Assembly (NCBI GenBank): GCA_014584465.1
Contig: JACTMU010000024.1
Span: 1-43,085 of the forward strand
Direction: 5' to 3'
Source: Pseudomonadota bacterium
GTDB lineage: Bacteria > Bdellovibrionota > Bdellovibrionia > Bdellovibrionales > JACTMU01
DNA length: 43,085 nucleotides
In this document: in pieces, positions 68-42,988 of the stretch
Layout: each line of letters starts with the position of its first letter
Numbering within the stretch: position 1 is the first letter of the stretch
Made by a program: the position numbers and the translations under genes
Notes under the pieces: model-generated
The model's database searches: none
What the model was told of the DNA's origin: nothing
Seen by the model: the letters and a program-made list of their open reading frames with translations, nothing else

Positions 68-115
68 AAAATAGGCTGAGAACTCGGTACTCTCAAGTTA
101 CATACTGGAGAGGCT

Positions 116-184
116 ATGATCCAGAGGGTGAAAGCAATTCTGCTGACGAATATTATTGCAAGAGGGATTGAGGACGTAAATTAG
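116..184 (+). CDS. Possible 22-residue small ORF
   Basis: An ATG at 116 follows GGAG with 5-nt spacing, and the frame runs 22 codons to TAG. The peptide is MIQRVKAILLTNIIARGIED plus two residues, with a short hydrophobic middle. It may be a small peptide gene, the decayed start of a lost gene, or chance. The good ribosome-binding site is the only support. Confidence 0.2.
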   Translation: MIQRVKAILLTNIIARGIEDVN

Positions 185-13002: not shown

Positions 13003-13434
13003 AGTTCTTCTTTCGGAATATCCTCTTAGAAACAAAAATATTTCACACTTTTGAATTAAGACGATTCAAAAAGGGCTCTCCAATTGACGAAGCCACGCAA
13101 TTCCGCTATTCTATTTATAGGCTTCAAGTGGTGACAGAAAAATAAACCCTACAAGCCAATTATTGGGGGCTATCCCTGACAATGGTGTGCATGCTCAGTG
13201 TTTCGAACAATCTGAGAAGCCTAAAGTTGTTATCATGGCGACCCACTTTGACAAAAACGGGTTTATGTTTCGTCCTACCACTTGAGCTTTTTTTTATTTT
13301 CCCGTCTCATTTTTCCCGTCTCATTTTGATCCACTTCACCTAAACCTAGTGGACTTGAACCAAGAGCTCTAGGAGCTCGATCAAGGGATTCACGTTGGCA
13401 CACCCCTTGCTCTTACATTTCATCGGGAGGCGCA
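13003..13434. other. Intergenic between divergent genes, with a 14-bp tandem repeat
   Basis: About 430 bp separate the small membrane-protein gene (minus) from the coiled-coil gene (plus), so promoters for both should lie here. The unit TTTTCCCGTCTCAT is present twice in tandem (13297-13324, continuing TTTTG). A self-complementary stretch with AGAGCTCTAGGAGCTC lies near 13363-13378. GGGAGG just before 13435 is the ribosome-binding site of the downstream gene. No gene was recognised. Confidence 0.4.
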
Positions 13435-39332: not shown

Positions 39333-39374
39333 GGAAAGGTGGCCGAGTGGCTGAAGGCGCACGCCTGGAACGCG
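39333..39374 (+). pseudogene. 5' half of a tRNA-Ser (GGA), truncated
   Basis: GGAAAGG (acceptor 5' strand), TG, the D-arm GCC-GAGTGGCTGAA-GGC, the anticodon stem CACGC and the loop CTGGAAC with anticodon GGA are all canonical. The 3' anticodon strand should read GCGTG but reads GCGGT. No variable arm, T-arm or acceptor 3' strand follows. The gene is therefore broken just after the anticodon loop, at the left border of the integrated element. Confidence 0.75.
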
Positions 39375-39509
39375 GTTGGAAAGCGGTTGTTGATATTGAA
39401 ATGATTGCTCTTTTTAGGGCAAGGTGAACGCTAGGTGAACAGCATTCATCAAAATGGGTGAAAATAGATCGTAAGGAGTTTTGGAAGTTCTAAATTTTAG
39501 ATTTTAAAC
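39375..39509. other. Spacer between broken and intact tRNA-Ser genes
   Basis: This AT-rich stretch holds a short repeat (GCGGTTG twice near 39372-39389) and two GGTGAAC units (near 39423-39438). No tRNA 3' half (no TTCRA T-loop motif) is seen. It may contain an attachment site. Confidence 0.3.
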
Positions 39510-39600
39510 GGAGGGTTGGGAGAGTGGCTGAATCCGTTCGCTTGGAAAGCGAATTGACGTCAAAAGCGTCACGCGAGTTCGAATCTCGCATCCTCCGCCA
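39510..39600 (+). tRNA. tRNA-Ser (GGA), complete
   Basis: The 91-nt gene includes an encoded CCA. Acceptor GGAGGGT pairs with ATCCTCC. The D-stem is GGA/TCC. The anticodon stem TTCGC/GCGAA encloses TTGGAAA with anticodon GGA. A long class-II variable arm (GACG...CGTC) and the T-arm GCGAG-TTCGAAT-CTCGC follow. It reads the same codons as the broken tRNA gene upstream but differs strongly in sequence, so it probably came with the element. Confidence 0.92.
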
Positions 39601-39678
39601 ATTTATCCCACGGGTTTTCCCCGAATCGGCGTAAGCAGCCAGAATTCCACAGGTAATGAAATCAGACGGTTACACTCG

Positions 39679-39697
39679 CCGAATTCGGTGACGTCAC
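39679..39697. promoter_or_regulatory. Two adjoining perfect 10-bp palindromes
   Basis: CCGAATTCGG (39679-39688) and GTGACGTCAC (39688-39697) are each perfect palindromes and share one base. They lie about 120 bp before the AbiGi-like gene and are candidate operator sites for a dimeric regulator or sites for the recombinase. Confidence 0.45.
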
Positions 39698-39737
39698 TTG
39701 ACGCTTTATGAATATTCACTTCGTTGGCTGGGAAAAG

Positions 39738-39765
39738 TCTGGATTTGGTCTGGATAATTCTGGAT
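39738..39765. repeat. Three helically phased TCTGGAT repeats
   Basis: TCTGGAT occurs at 39738, 39749 and 39759, spaced 11 and 10 bp, about one DNA turn. Such phased direct repeats suit cooperative protein binding, as in operators or recombinase arm sites. They lie directly upstream of the AbiGi-like operon. Confidence 0.5.
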
Positions 39766-39815
39766 GGATAGCTAGGTACCAAGCTAAAAATGAGTAACAA
39801 AAATTAGAACTTTAG

Positions 39816-40631
39816 TTGGGCCGTCGGCAATTGGAGATGTTCCAACAAGGTGGACCTGTTAGTATATCAATTAATATGTCAGTTGAGTTGAATGAAACAG
39901 TTTCTCAAGCAAGAATAGTTGGAGCTCTCGGTTATACGAGTGAGATCCTCTGGCATTTTTTCGGACGGAATCGAAAAACCCCAGAAGAAAAACTACAGTT
40001 GCTTTCGGCCATTCTTGATAACCAAAAGCTATTGGTAGAGCCGCCGAAATGGAAAGAATATAAAGTCCAGGTGTCGGCAACCCAACAAGCTGCCCCCATG
40101 AATCAGGACGATTTGCCACCAAGCTCCGCTTCAGATATTTATTTTGCAGAACCCAAAATGGTATGTCTTGCAGACATTCCAATCCATTGCTTACCAATTC
40201 ATAGCCAGCGGTATAACAAATTTGCATTTGGTTTTTCAAAGGCAAAATTGAATCAGACTTATCGTGAGAAACTTCGAACGGTGATGCTTTTCACAACTGA
40301 TTGGGCAAAAGCAAGCATAGCAGAACTAAATGGAGCCCTTCTACGTAAGCGTGCGGAAACTATGGTTTACGAACCCTCTGTAGAGGTAGCTAAATTTTTG
40401 AAGTTTGAAAGTGGAATTCTTGGAGACGAGTGTTTTCAAAATATTTATTTAGAAAGAGAGTGGCGCTGTCTTGAAGATGTAACGTTGGCCCCACACCTTG
40501 AGCTATTGATTGTGCCTAGAGGGTCCCTTGAAAAGGCCAGAGATTTAATAGATGAAAAGCTATCTTCCAATAGCAAGCAGGTTTCAGTGCTAGCTTGGGA
40601 GTCACTTTATGGCGAAGAGGGGGCAACATGA
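39816..40631 (+). CDS. AbiGi-like abortive-infection family protein
   Basis: The product (271 residues from TTG 39816) fits the pattern I know for the AbiGi family. It has an N-terminal ILWHFFGRNRKTPEEKLQLL (44-63), a conserved centre MVCLADIP...LPIHSQRYNKFAFGFSK (115-142) and a C-terminal YLEREWR (211-217) followed by a strand ending LLIVPRG. AbiGi is one component of the lactococcal AbiG phage-resistance pair. The start is uncertain (TTG 39816, ATG 39837 or ATG 39876; none has a well-placed ribosome-binding site). The stop overlaps the next gene's ATG (ATGA). AT-rich codon use differs from the neighbouring core genes. Confidence 0.65.
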   Translation: MGRRQLEMFQQGGPVSISINMSVELNETVSQARIVGALGYTSEILWHFFGRNRKTPEEKLQLLSAILDNQKLLVEPPKWKEYKVQVSATQQAAPMNQDDLPPSSASDIYFAEPKMVCLADIPIHCLPIHSQRYNKFAFGFSKAKLNQTYREKLRTVMLFTTDWAKASIAELNGALLRKRAETMVYEPSVEVAKFLKFESGILGDECFQNIYLEREWRCLEDVTLAPHLELLIVPRGSLEKARDLIDEKLSSNSKQVSVLAWESLYGEEGAT

Positions 40632-41380
40632 TCAGAGATTATCTGAAGGCTAATACTCTTCCGGTCGGTACGAATAGGTGGCTTAATCAGTGGAGAACTC
40701 AAGAAAACTTGGCGCAAGCACAGATGTCGCTGTTCGCCTTAAAGGGTAATGAGTTCGAAGGCAGCAGATCAAGATTTGTAATTTTTGTCTCTCCAGATGA
40801 TACCGTTGCGGGTGAAATTGAAGAAACTTTTTTAGCATGGATGGATAGTCCGGAGAGAACTCCTTATTTTGAATGTCAGCTCGTAGATCGACAAAATCAA
40901 AACCTGCCCGAGAGTAATGACAATTCAATTATTGTAAGTCGCCGATCAAGAATAGTTAAATCCGTGGATATCTTGCCGCATTTTCAAGCTGCAAATGAAG
41001 ATACACTTACGCGAGACTTACTAAGGTCGCTCTGGCAGATTTTATCTTTACGTGCGTCCAAGGCAACCGGCCAACAAACGGTTGAGTGGGATTTTTTTAC
41101 AAAGCAAAGATTGGTGCCATCAATCTATCTACCTCCAGATTCTACGGTAGGTACTGATAATCTTAAGGACTCAATAGTTTCTGTCGTGAAAACAGTTCTC
41201 CATCATAGAGATATGATTTGGGATGACTATGCGGTATTTGCCGCCACCAATGAGCTTTTTCAAGCACCGTCCGATTATACGAGAGTAAAAAATAGGACCG
41301 AAATTTTACTCAATCAAAATCCGGATCAGCTCACCATTGATATTTTAGAGTCACTTAAAACTCATTGGCGTATTCAATAA
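40628..41380 (+). CDS. Unknown partner protein of the AbiGi-like gene
   Basis: The 250-residue soluble protein starts at ATG 40628 after GAGGGGG and is translationally coupled to the AbiGi-like gene by a 4-nt overlap. Visible pieces are SRFVIFVSPDDTVAGEIEET, a probable alpha/beta strand-loop start, and SRRSRIVKSVDILPHF. A long helical middle follows, with a C-terminal stretch SDYTRVKNRTEILLNQNPDQ. I see no nucleotidyltransferase, nuclease, HTH or membrane motif, so it does not look like AbiGii. I do not recognise it. Its tight linkage implies a toxin/effector or co-sensor role with the first gene. Confidence 0.6.
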   Translation: MIRDYLKANTLPVGTNRWLNQWRTQENLAQAQMSLFALKGNEFEGSRSRFVIFVSPDDTVAGEIEETFLAWMDSPERTPYFECQLVDRQNQNLPESNDNSIIVSRRSRIVKSVDILPHFQAANEDTLTRDLLRSLWQILSLRASKATGQQTVEWDFFTKQRLVPSIYLPPDSTVGTDNLKDSIVSVVKTVLHHRDMIWDDYAVFAATNELFQAPSDYTRVKNRTEILLNQNPDQLTIDILESLKTHWRIQ

Positions 41381-41629: not shown

Positions 41630-42733
41630 TTACTGGCGAACTGGCTTCAAATGAGCCGCGATACCTAGCAAGCGCTCTTCAGTTCTATGAATATACCGCA
41701 TGGTTGTCGAAATACTTGAGTGATTCAGCAGGCGACGGATGTCTTCTGTGCTAGCTCCTGCGTTGACATATAACTCAGTCGCAGAATGACGTAGTTCGTG
41801 TGGAGTTATTTTAGGAACACCTGCCTCCTGACAAAGACGGGGAAGGACTTTGATAAACCAAGAGTGTTCGAGCATTGCTCCATTGGGCCCAGGACAAGCA
41901 AAATCAGTGGGTCCCTTGCCTGCAACTTTTTCTTTTAGGTACTCGGCAAGTTCGGGAGCGATCGGAGCTTTGCCCCAGTTCCCCTGTTTAGGGTTTGGTT
42001 TGATTTTCTTGGTTTTGCGGCAGTAAGAACTTTTAATCAAAATGTGGCCCTCATCAAAACGCAGCGATGATACAAGCAGTGGTTGGGTTTCGCCTATTCG
42101 CAGTGCCGCCAATGTTTGAACCCAAATTGCCGGTCCGGCCCAATGATCACGCGTATAGTTCAGCAGCTTCCAACTTTGCTCTGGCGTCAGAAATGCGCGT
42201 TCTTTTTTTATGACTTTCCGTCTGAATTTATTTTGAACTGGATTCACCGTCAGCAACTCAAAGTGATTGATAGCGTCGCCAAAAATCTTGTGAAGATAGT
42301 TGTAGATTTTGGACATTGATTCGGCAGCACGCCTTCGTCCATTGCCCATGTCTTCAGCCTTGTCCAGCAAACGCTTAATATCTTGTTGTTTTATATCCAC
42401 TAAGGGCATTTTGCCAATTTCAGGGACAATGAAGTCCCGGTTCATTTGATCTTGAGTAATTTTCCAGCCTTCGGAGACATGATTACGGCATTCCTTTGCC
42501 CAGCGCTCCCAATAATCCTCATATGTAAGGAGAGTCATATTTCGATATTCGAGAGGAACTTTTGATTGCAGCTCTAAATCTCTGAGTGTTTTTAGTTTCA
42601 AATCCGCTTCGACCTGAAGGCCTTCTGCTTTTGAGTAACAGGTAACTTGCGGATGCCAAGTGCCGTCCGCTTTGCGAACACGAACCTTAAATCGTAGTTC
42701 TCCTTTTGACGTTTTTTCTTTGATAACGGCCAT
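41630..42733 (-). CDS. Tyrosine-family site-specific recombinase (integrase)
   Basis: The 367-residue protein has an N-terminal arm-binding-like region, a SAM-like core-binding domain (about 65-165) and a catalytic domain. The catalytic set is complete: Arg212 (ALRIGE), Lys near 239 (SYCRKTKK), His312 and Arg315 (HELRH), His338 (LLNHSS) and Tyr347 (RYIHR). It would catalyse integration and excision of the element. The ATG follows GGAG with good spacing, 12 nt after the excisionase-like gene. It converges on the AbiGi-like operon. Confidence 0.93.
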   Translation of the reverse strand: MAVIKEKTSKGELRFKVRVRKADGTWHPQVTCYSKAEGLQVEADLKLKTLRDLELQSKVPLEYRNMTLLTYEDYWERWAKECRNHVSEGWKITQDQMNRDFIVPEIGKMPLVDIKQQDIKRLLDKAEDMGNGRRRAAESMSKIYNYLHKIFGDAINHFELLTVNPVQNKFRRKVIKKERAFLTPEQSWKLLNYTRDHWAGPAIWVQTLAALRIGETQPLLVSSLRFDEGHILIKSSYCRKTKKIKPNPKQGNWGKAPIAPELAEYLKEKVAGKGPTDFACPGPNGAMLEHSWFIKVLPRLCQEAGVPKITPHELRHSATELYVNAGASTEDIRRLLNHSSISTTMRYIHRTEERLLGIAAHLKPVRQ

Positions 42734-42745
42734 ACTTTCTCCGAC

Positions 42746-42988
42746 TCATCGAACTTTAAAGTATCGCCTACGCCTATCAACCAATTCCTTAGGGGCAACC
42801 TCCTGAGCGGCACTCCACTTCAAGAGACTGTCGCGACTAAAAACAAGTCGCGAGCCATGCTTTCGATATGGGACCTTCTGTTTGTGGACCCATGAATAGA
42901 CCGTGGCGACTTTCACCTGAAGGAAATCTGCCGCTTGGCTTACATTTAAAAGATCGTCATTTTTTACTTCGCAATTCATATCGAACAT
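42746..42988 (-). CDS. Excisionase/MerR-type helix-turn-helix protein
   Basis: The 80-residue product contains LLNVSQAADFLQVKVATVYSW followed by the wing KVPYRKHGSRLVFSRDSLLKW, the classic single-domain HTH_17/excisionase fold. Small proteins of this kind bind next to attachment sites and direct excision by the neighbouring integrase. ATG 42988 or ATG 42979 could be the start; neither has a clear ribosome-binding site. It is immediately upstream of the integrase gene. Confidence 0.85.
   Translation of the reverse strand: MFDMNCEVKNDDLLNVSQAADFLQVKVATVYSWVHKQKVPYRKHGSRLVFSRDSLLKWSAAQEVAPKELVDRRRRYFKVR

Follow-up and report, generated by a model that had tools for sequence, protein, structure and literature searches.

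An element with a tyrosine integrase has very probably split the native tRNA-Ser(GGA) gene of a bacterium that apparently belongs to the Bdellovibrionales, and supplies a divergent substitute for decoding the serine codons UCC and UCU. The window, which is the whole stretch of DNA analysed here, is contig C33 in its entirety (43,085 bp); the draft genome to which it belongs comprises 120 contigs, totals 3.75 Mb and has an estimated completeness of 99.67%. The split itself, a core common to both junctions, paired repeats in both arms, an integrase with an excisionase-like gene and a complete second tRNA can all be read directly from the DNA. The two ends of the element lie on separate contigs, C33 and C95, so that its continuity between them is deduced.

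Two halves of the native tRNA-Ser(GGA) gene

The 5' half of the native host gene, together with the attachment core, occupies 39333-39374 on the plus strand and forms the left junction. A 36-mer from this half (39339-39374) matches intact tRNA-Ser(GGA) genes in two related genomes, G057 and G019, with 0 mismatches. With at most three mismatches it recurs in 38 of 60 related genomes, once in each and never twice, and tRNA-Ser(GGA) therefore looks single-copy across the order. The 36-mer is unique in its own genome, where a 20-mer from the D-arm, again allowing up to three mismatches, otherwise finds only tRNA-Tyr and one non-tRNA site. Identity to tRNA breaks sharply at 39374/39375, just past the anticodon loop. 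ARAGORN calls no tRNA directly 3' of 39374, where the 3' half is absent, and the broken copy scores 15.7 bits against an Rfam threshold of 29. The initial annotation had described a gene that is canonical up to the anticodon loop and then lacks its 3' half; with 36 of 36 bases matching up to the break at 39374, that description is accurate.

It had been suggested at the outset to look for the lost 3' half at the other end of the element; such a search locates it on C95 (254-194, minus strand). The pattern for the lost 3' end, GTTCGAATCNNNNCCTTTCCGCCA, was deduced from the 5' acceptor strand GGAAAGG. When up to three mismatches are allowed, the genome contains two matches to it, one in tRNA-Ser(TGA) and an exact one at C95 217-194 (minus strand); the reversed pattern has 0 matches in the same genome. 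From the exact acceptor match, the variable arm leads back to a 13-bp att core, CGCCTGGAACGCG, which consists of the anticodon loop and 3 bp of stem on each side. The core is identical at the two junctions, at 39362-39374 (plus strand) in the window and at C95 254-242 (minus strand), and occurs once in each of these contigs.

Joined at CGCCTGGAACGCG, the halves form a 90-nt tRNA-Ser(GGA) in which all seven pairs of the acceptor stem and the remaining stems are formed (ARAGORN). An intact native gene would read GGAAAGG...CCTTTCCGCCA. Each contig contributes one strand of the acceptor stem, which makes chance or mixed binning a very improbable origin. Neither junction yields a functional tRNA: the left one carries the 5' half, and the right one carries the 3' half preceded by an apparently eroded 5' part. 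Taken together, these matches give very high confidence in the anatomy of the split and its core.

Anatomy of the element

What sits between the two halves supports the earlier suggestion of an integration into the anticodon region. The tyrosine recombinase (integrase) at 41630-42733 (minus strand) has a SAM-like core-binding domain (PF00589, E=6e-19; PF14659; phrog_1, E=7e-46), and its translation shows the R, HxxR, H and Y motifs. Beside it, at 42746-42988 (minus strand), an excisionase-like HTH_17 protein is encoded (PF12728, E=7e-13; TIGR01764 just above the cut-off). From the left end, 2.3-3.6 kb separate the two genes, with cargo between the core and the integrase, a spacing that counts against the proposed integration. 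Directly upstream of the excisionase-like gene, palindromic GCCGGCTAAAGCCGG-type repeats occupy the contig end (42990-43085 of the window). Similar GGCTTTAGCCGG is present near the inner end of C95, and C33 and C95 may adjoin there. No overlap was found between the inner ends of C33 and C95. If the contigs adjoin, the element is at least 15.4 kb long, and it may be longer.

Paired repeats of the form AGGTGAACGC[T/C]AGGTGAAC lie inside both ends of the element and resemble the arm-type sites of lambda-like integrases. The left arm runs from the core to the replacement tRNA (39375-39509, plus strand), and its putative arm-type integrase sites, AGGTGAACGCTAGGTGAAC, are at 39422-39440. The right-arm copy on C95, AGGTGAACGCCAGGTGAAC, has the same orientation as the left. 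Distances between the AGGTGAAC repeats and the core are about 49 and 60 bp in the left arm; in the right arm they are about 131 and 120 bp.

The cargo is defence-like. An AbiGi-like antitoxin family protein is encoded at 39816-40631 (plus strand; PF10899, E=4.8e-8; PADLOC AbiGi, 1e-4), and an ORF that overlaps its gene (40595-41380, plus strand) is its probable partner and has no family match. C95 contributes 11.7 kb of element sequence, with genes for a RelA/SpoT-domain protein, an AAA_21 (OLD/AbiEii-like) ATPase, a Crp-type HTH protein, a serine recombinase and several unknowns. The RelA/SpoT-domain protein adjoins the AAA_21 ATPase, which has PDC-S33 and AriA/PtuA-like matches, and the two are a candidate defence pair (C95 983-3236, minus strand). 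Phage structural families are absent among the ten proteins scanned with PHROGs, a set taken from an element that is incomplete across contigs.

A dispersed repeat (repeat F) of 100-150 bp, marked by CCGAATTCGGTGACGTC, is present in three copies in the genome. One follows the element tRNA (39609-39767, plus strand), another follows the native 3' half (C95 about 100-180, minus strand), and the third, in the form CCGAATTCGGTGATGTC, is on contig C49 (33787-33915). The repeat ends in GTCTGGAT repeats on C33 and C49 and is unmatched in phage and plasmid collections. The 120-bp similarity after both the replacement tRNA and the native 3' half was considered as captured host flank. This explanation was rejected, because the C49 copy lies away from any tRNA and marks the repeat as dispersed. 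The C49 copy precedes ORFs that were read as Qat-like from a QueC-like motif, with no Pfam match, and are candidates for that system. Elsewhere in the window, a 6S RNA is encoded at 13116-13293 (RF00013, 59.9 bits).

The presumed replacement tRNA and its proposed role

The presumed replacement is a complete tRNA-Ser(GGA) at 39510-39600 (plus strand; ARAGORN; Rfam RF00005, 53.1 bits) with a full cloverleaf and a long variable arm. As first annotated, it follows the broken half after 135 bp and is divergent, with 65.9% identity to the rebuilt native gene. Its nearest relatives are the tRNA-Ser(GGA) of G059 (87.9%) and that of G050 (85.9-87%), genomes from other families of the order, and by this comparison the replacement is foreign in type. 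The related proposal that an element had carried in a replacement tRNA is likewise supported by the position of this complete, same-isotype gene inside the element's left end. Confidence in an element-borne replacement of the native tRNA is high.

Integration would proceed by recombination, through the 13-bp core, between attP on the element and an attB site within the host tRNA-Ser(GGA) anticodon loop, presumably carried out by the integrase at 41630-42733. This would leave the 5' half at the left end of the element and place the 3' half at the right. A 13-bp core is too short to rebuild the tRNA at either junction, so the native gene would be lost. The element would bring its own divergent tRNA-Ser(GGA), complete, 135 bp inside the left end and in the same direction. 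Transcription of this gene might start at a promoter of its own or at the orphaned promoter of the host tRNA, with read-through into the second gene; a search for sigma-70-like promoter matches near the replacement tRNA found none. Presumably expressed and charged, the second tRNA would take over UCC/UCU decoding.

The initial annotation had further suggested that this decoding would depend on the element. The suggestion is supported insofar as no second tRNA-Ser(GGA) was found in the genome (150 of 237 and 150 of 1415 candidates scored); the dependence is itself a deduction from the second tRNA being the only GGA tRNA, and the same searches also failed to find Ser(GCT). Every bacterium needs Ser(GCT). 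Its absence from the results indicates that the searches or the assembly are incomplete, and a second GGA gene may accordingly have been missed or be unassembled. There is moderate to high confidence that 39510-39600 is the sole source of tRNA-Ser(GGA), and the cell probably relies on the element to read serine UCC and UCU codons.

The replacement tRNA would be redundant if a further tRNA-Ser(GGA) had been left unassembled, or if tRNA-Ser(UGA) read UCC and UCU. The incomplete tRNA inventory, with Ser(GCT) missing, leaves room for the former, and a modified UGA anticodon can read some additional UCN codons in other bacteria. Set against these points, the order apparently has one tRNA-Ser(GGA) per genome and the completeness estimate of the assembly is high, which makes redundancy improbable.

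If the cell does depend on the element, the island would be hard to lose, because any deletion other than a precise excision would take the only tRNA-Ser(GGA) with it, and the defence cargo would be stabilised. The arrangement would also provide a mechanism for swapping a bacterial core tRNA gene for a foreign one.

Integrase relatives and other readings of the split

A survey of 141 genomes of the order turned up close relatives of the integrase in G025 and G130 only. In G130, an excisionase-like gene and an integrase with 35% identity over 355 residues run straight into an intact tRNA-Ser(GGA), which lies 108 bp past the integrase stop codon (C83 1622-3248). Paired ATGTTCCC repeats are present in the 108-bp gap. 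The G130 element possibly rebuilds the tRNA from the 5' side; a displaced 5' half was not found in the 1.12 of 1.8 Mb searched. In G012 (C15, about 995-1591), a remnant of the same integrase clade is found immediately 5' of tRNA-Ser(GGA), separated from it by a gap that contains ATGTTCCACAAAATGTTCCACA repeats, and the degenerate copy in G025 faces tRNA-Arg(TCT). Because all three copies adjoin tRNA genes, the clade appears to use such genes as targets, tRNA-Ser(GGA) in particular.

Comparison of the integrase with genome contigs, IMG/VR, phages and plasmids yields no useful relative (best about 22-27% identity, or none). Matches in IMG/VR to patterns of the arm repeat and the core were set aside as chance or unrelated, since they come without a tRNA or a related integrase. 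In related genomes, homologues of the gene that precedes the broken tRNA lack any tRNA in the 1.5 kb around them, and no empty site was found through their synteny.

The intact tRNA-Ser(GGA) beside the G130 integrase and the tRNA-Arg beside that of G025 recall an ordinary tRNA-targeted island, in which the target is rebuilt at one junction and a broken copy is the usual displaced fragment; a tyrosine integrase beside a tRNA gene is the classic arrangement. Here, however, a functional tRNA is present at neither junction, as the left has a 5' half and the right a 3' half with an eroded 5' part. The intact tRNA lies 135 bp inside the element and is 34% different from the native gene, and so is not a crossover product. 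An ordinary island is thus a very unlikely account of this locus.

An assembly or binning artefact, with C33 and C95 chimeric or derived from different organisms, might be suspected in a 120-contig draft with repeat-like sequence at the ends of both contigs. It is hardly credible given the perfect stems obtained on joining, the seven-pair acceptor stem drawn from both contigs, the common core and the matching arms. The G+C content of the element is also alike on the two contigs (0.440 on C33 and 0.435 on C95, versus 0.479 in the host part). Multi-copy tRNA clusters exist and two same-isotype genes do stand in tandem 135 bp apart, but the chance that one of two neighbouring tRNA-Ser(GGA) genes simply degenerated without integration is negligible, as the broken copy is perfect up to a sharp anticodon-loop break, its exact complementary 3' half lies elsewhere with the 13-bp core and arm repeats in common, and relatives have one copy.

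A possible relic 5' half in the right arm

A covariance model of 21 tRNA-Ser genes was aligned over the full length of the element's right end. Before the right core it places a D-arm-like ATTGCCAAGTGGTTGAAATG, followed by extra bases modelled as an insertion. ATTGCCAAGTGGTTGAAATG agrees with a tRNA-Ser D-arm at 14 of 16 positions; among 5000 dinucleotide shuffles 1 scores as well, and none of 1300 segments of this contig does. The stretch at C95 304-256 (minus strand) resembles an eroded tRNA-Ser 5' half with an insertion of about 20 bases.

The simplest reading of this possible relic and the G130 arrangement, held with moderate confidence, is that an ancestral attP contained the 5' half, with which the tRNA was restored at the right junction, and that decay of this half followed once the element carried a complete tRNA gene. 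A broader scenario is more tentative and somewhat doubtful: a family of non-phage, defence-carrying Bdellovibrionales islands on tRNA-Ser(GGA) may once have rebuilt its target. Gain of a complete tRNA gene would then have allowed the 5' half to decay, leaving the island addictive to its host. If this is true, the eroded right-arm half would mark an intermediate stage on the way from canonical restoration of a tRNA to its replacement.

Comparison with known systems

In tRNA-dependent lysogeny, integration through a short core leaves the tRNA gene without rebuilding, and a cognate tRNA is supplied by the phage (Guerrero-Bustamante and Hatfull 2024; PMC10865867). Experiments with mycobacteriophages have demonstrated it, the cores there being 8-17 bp long, and the authors raise the relation of tRNA replacement to canonical restoration as a question (PMC10865867). 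The possible relic 5' half described here may offer a direct lead on how replacement evolves from restoration. The initial annotation had called the locus an unusual form of target compensation; compensation is supported, and the form has already been described as tRNA-dependent lysogeny (PMC10865867).

By its sequence, the present element seems to work in the same way. Its 13-bp core falls within the published range and likewise lies in a tRNA gene, neither junction is rebuilt, and the element encodes a complete tRNA of the disrupted isotype. A tyrosine integrase and arm-type sites flanking the core are shared with actinobacteriophages such as Fionnbharth, LeBron and Gaia (PMC10865867). Unlike those systems, the host here is apparently from the Bdellovibrionales, the isotype, tRNA-Ser(GGA), is outside the published table (PMC10865867), phage structural genes are so far unseen and the cargo is defence-like. 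An apparently eroded tRNA 5' half is kept in attP here, and dependence is presumed from sequence. As its phage nature is unproven, the element is not filed as lysogeny.

Phage-related sequences in Sinorhizobium meliloti carry a tRNA-Leu(UAG) that substitutes for the disrupted host copy (PMC11476347). There too, integration inactivates the host tRNA and the divergent element tRNA resembles those of other taxa (PMC11476347), whereas the phylum and isotype differ and the elements are of prophage type. In the Lj965 prophage of Lactobacillus johnsonii, as cited in PMC10865867, the tRNA is not rebuilt at the junction and a cognate tRNA is on the prophage; that element differs from the present one in being a Firmicutes prophage. 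Islander-type islands also combine a tyrosine integrase, a crossover within a tRNA gene and a displaced fragment that marks the end (PMC4383910), but in those islands the element's att sequence regenerates the target, which is not the case here.

Among the papers searched, none described a case of such tRNA replacement from the Bdellovibrionales. New relative to the described systems are the lineage (apparently Bdellovibrionales), the tRNA-Ser(GGA) isotype, the defence-like cargo without phage genes so far and the apparently eroded 5' half. The range of integrating elements that replace a probably essential tRNA would thereby reach beyond actinobacteriophages, possibly to a non-phage island.
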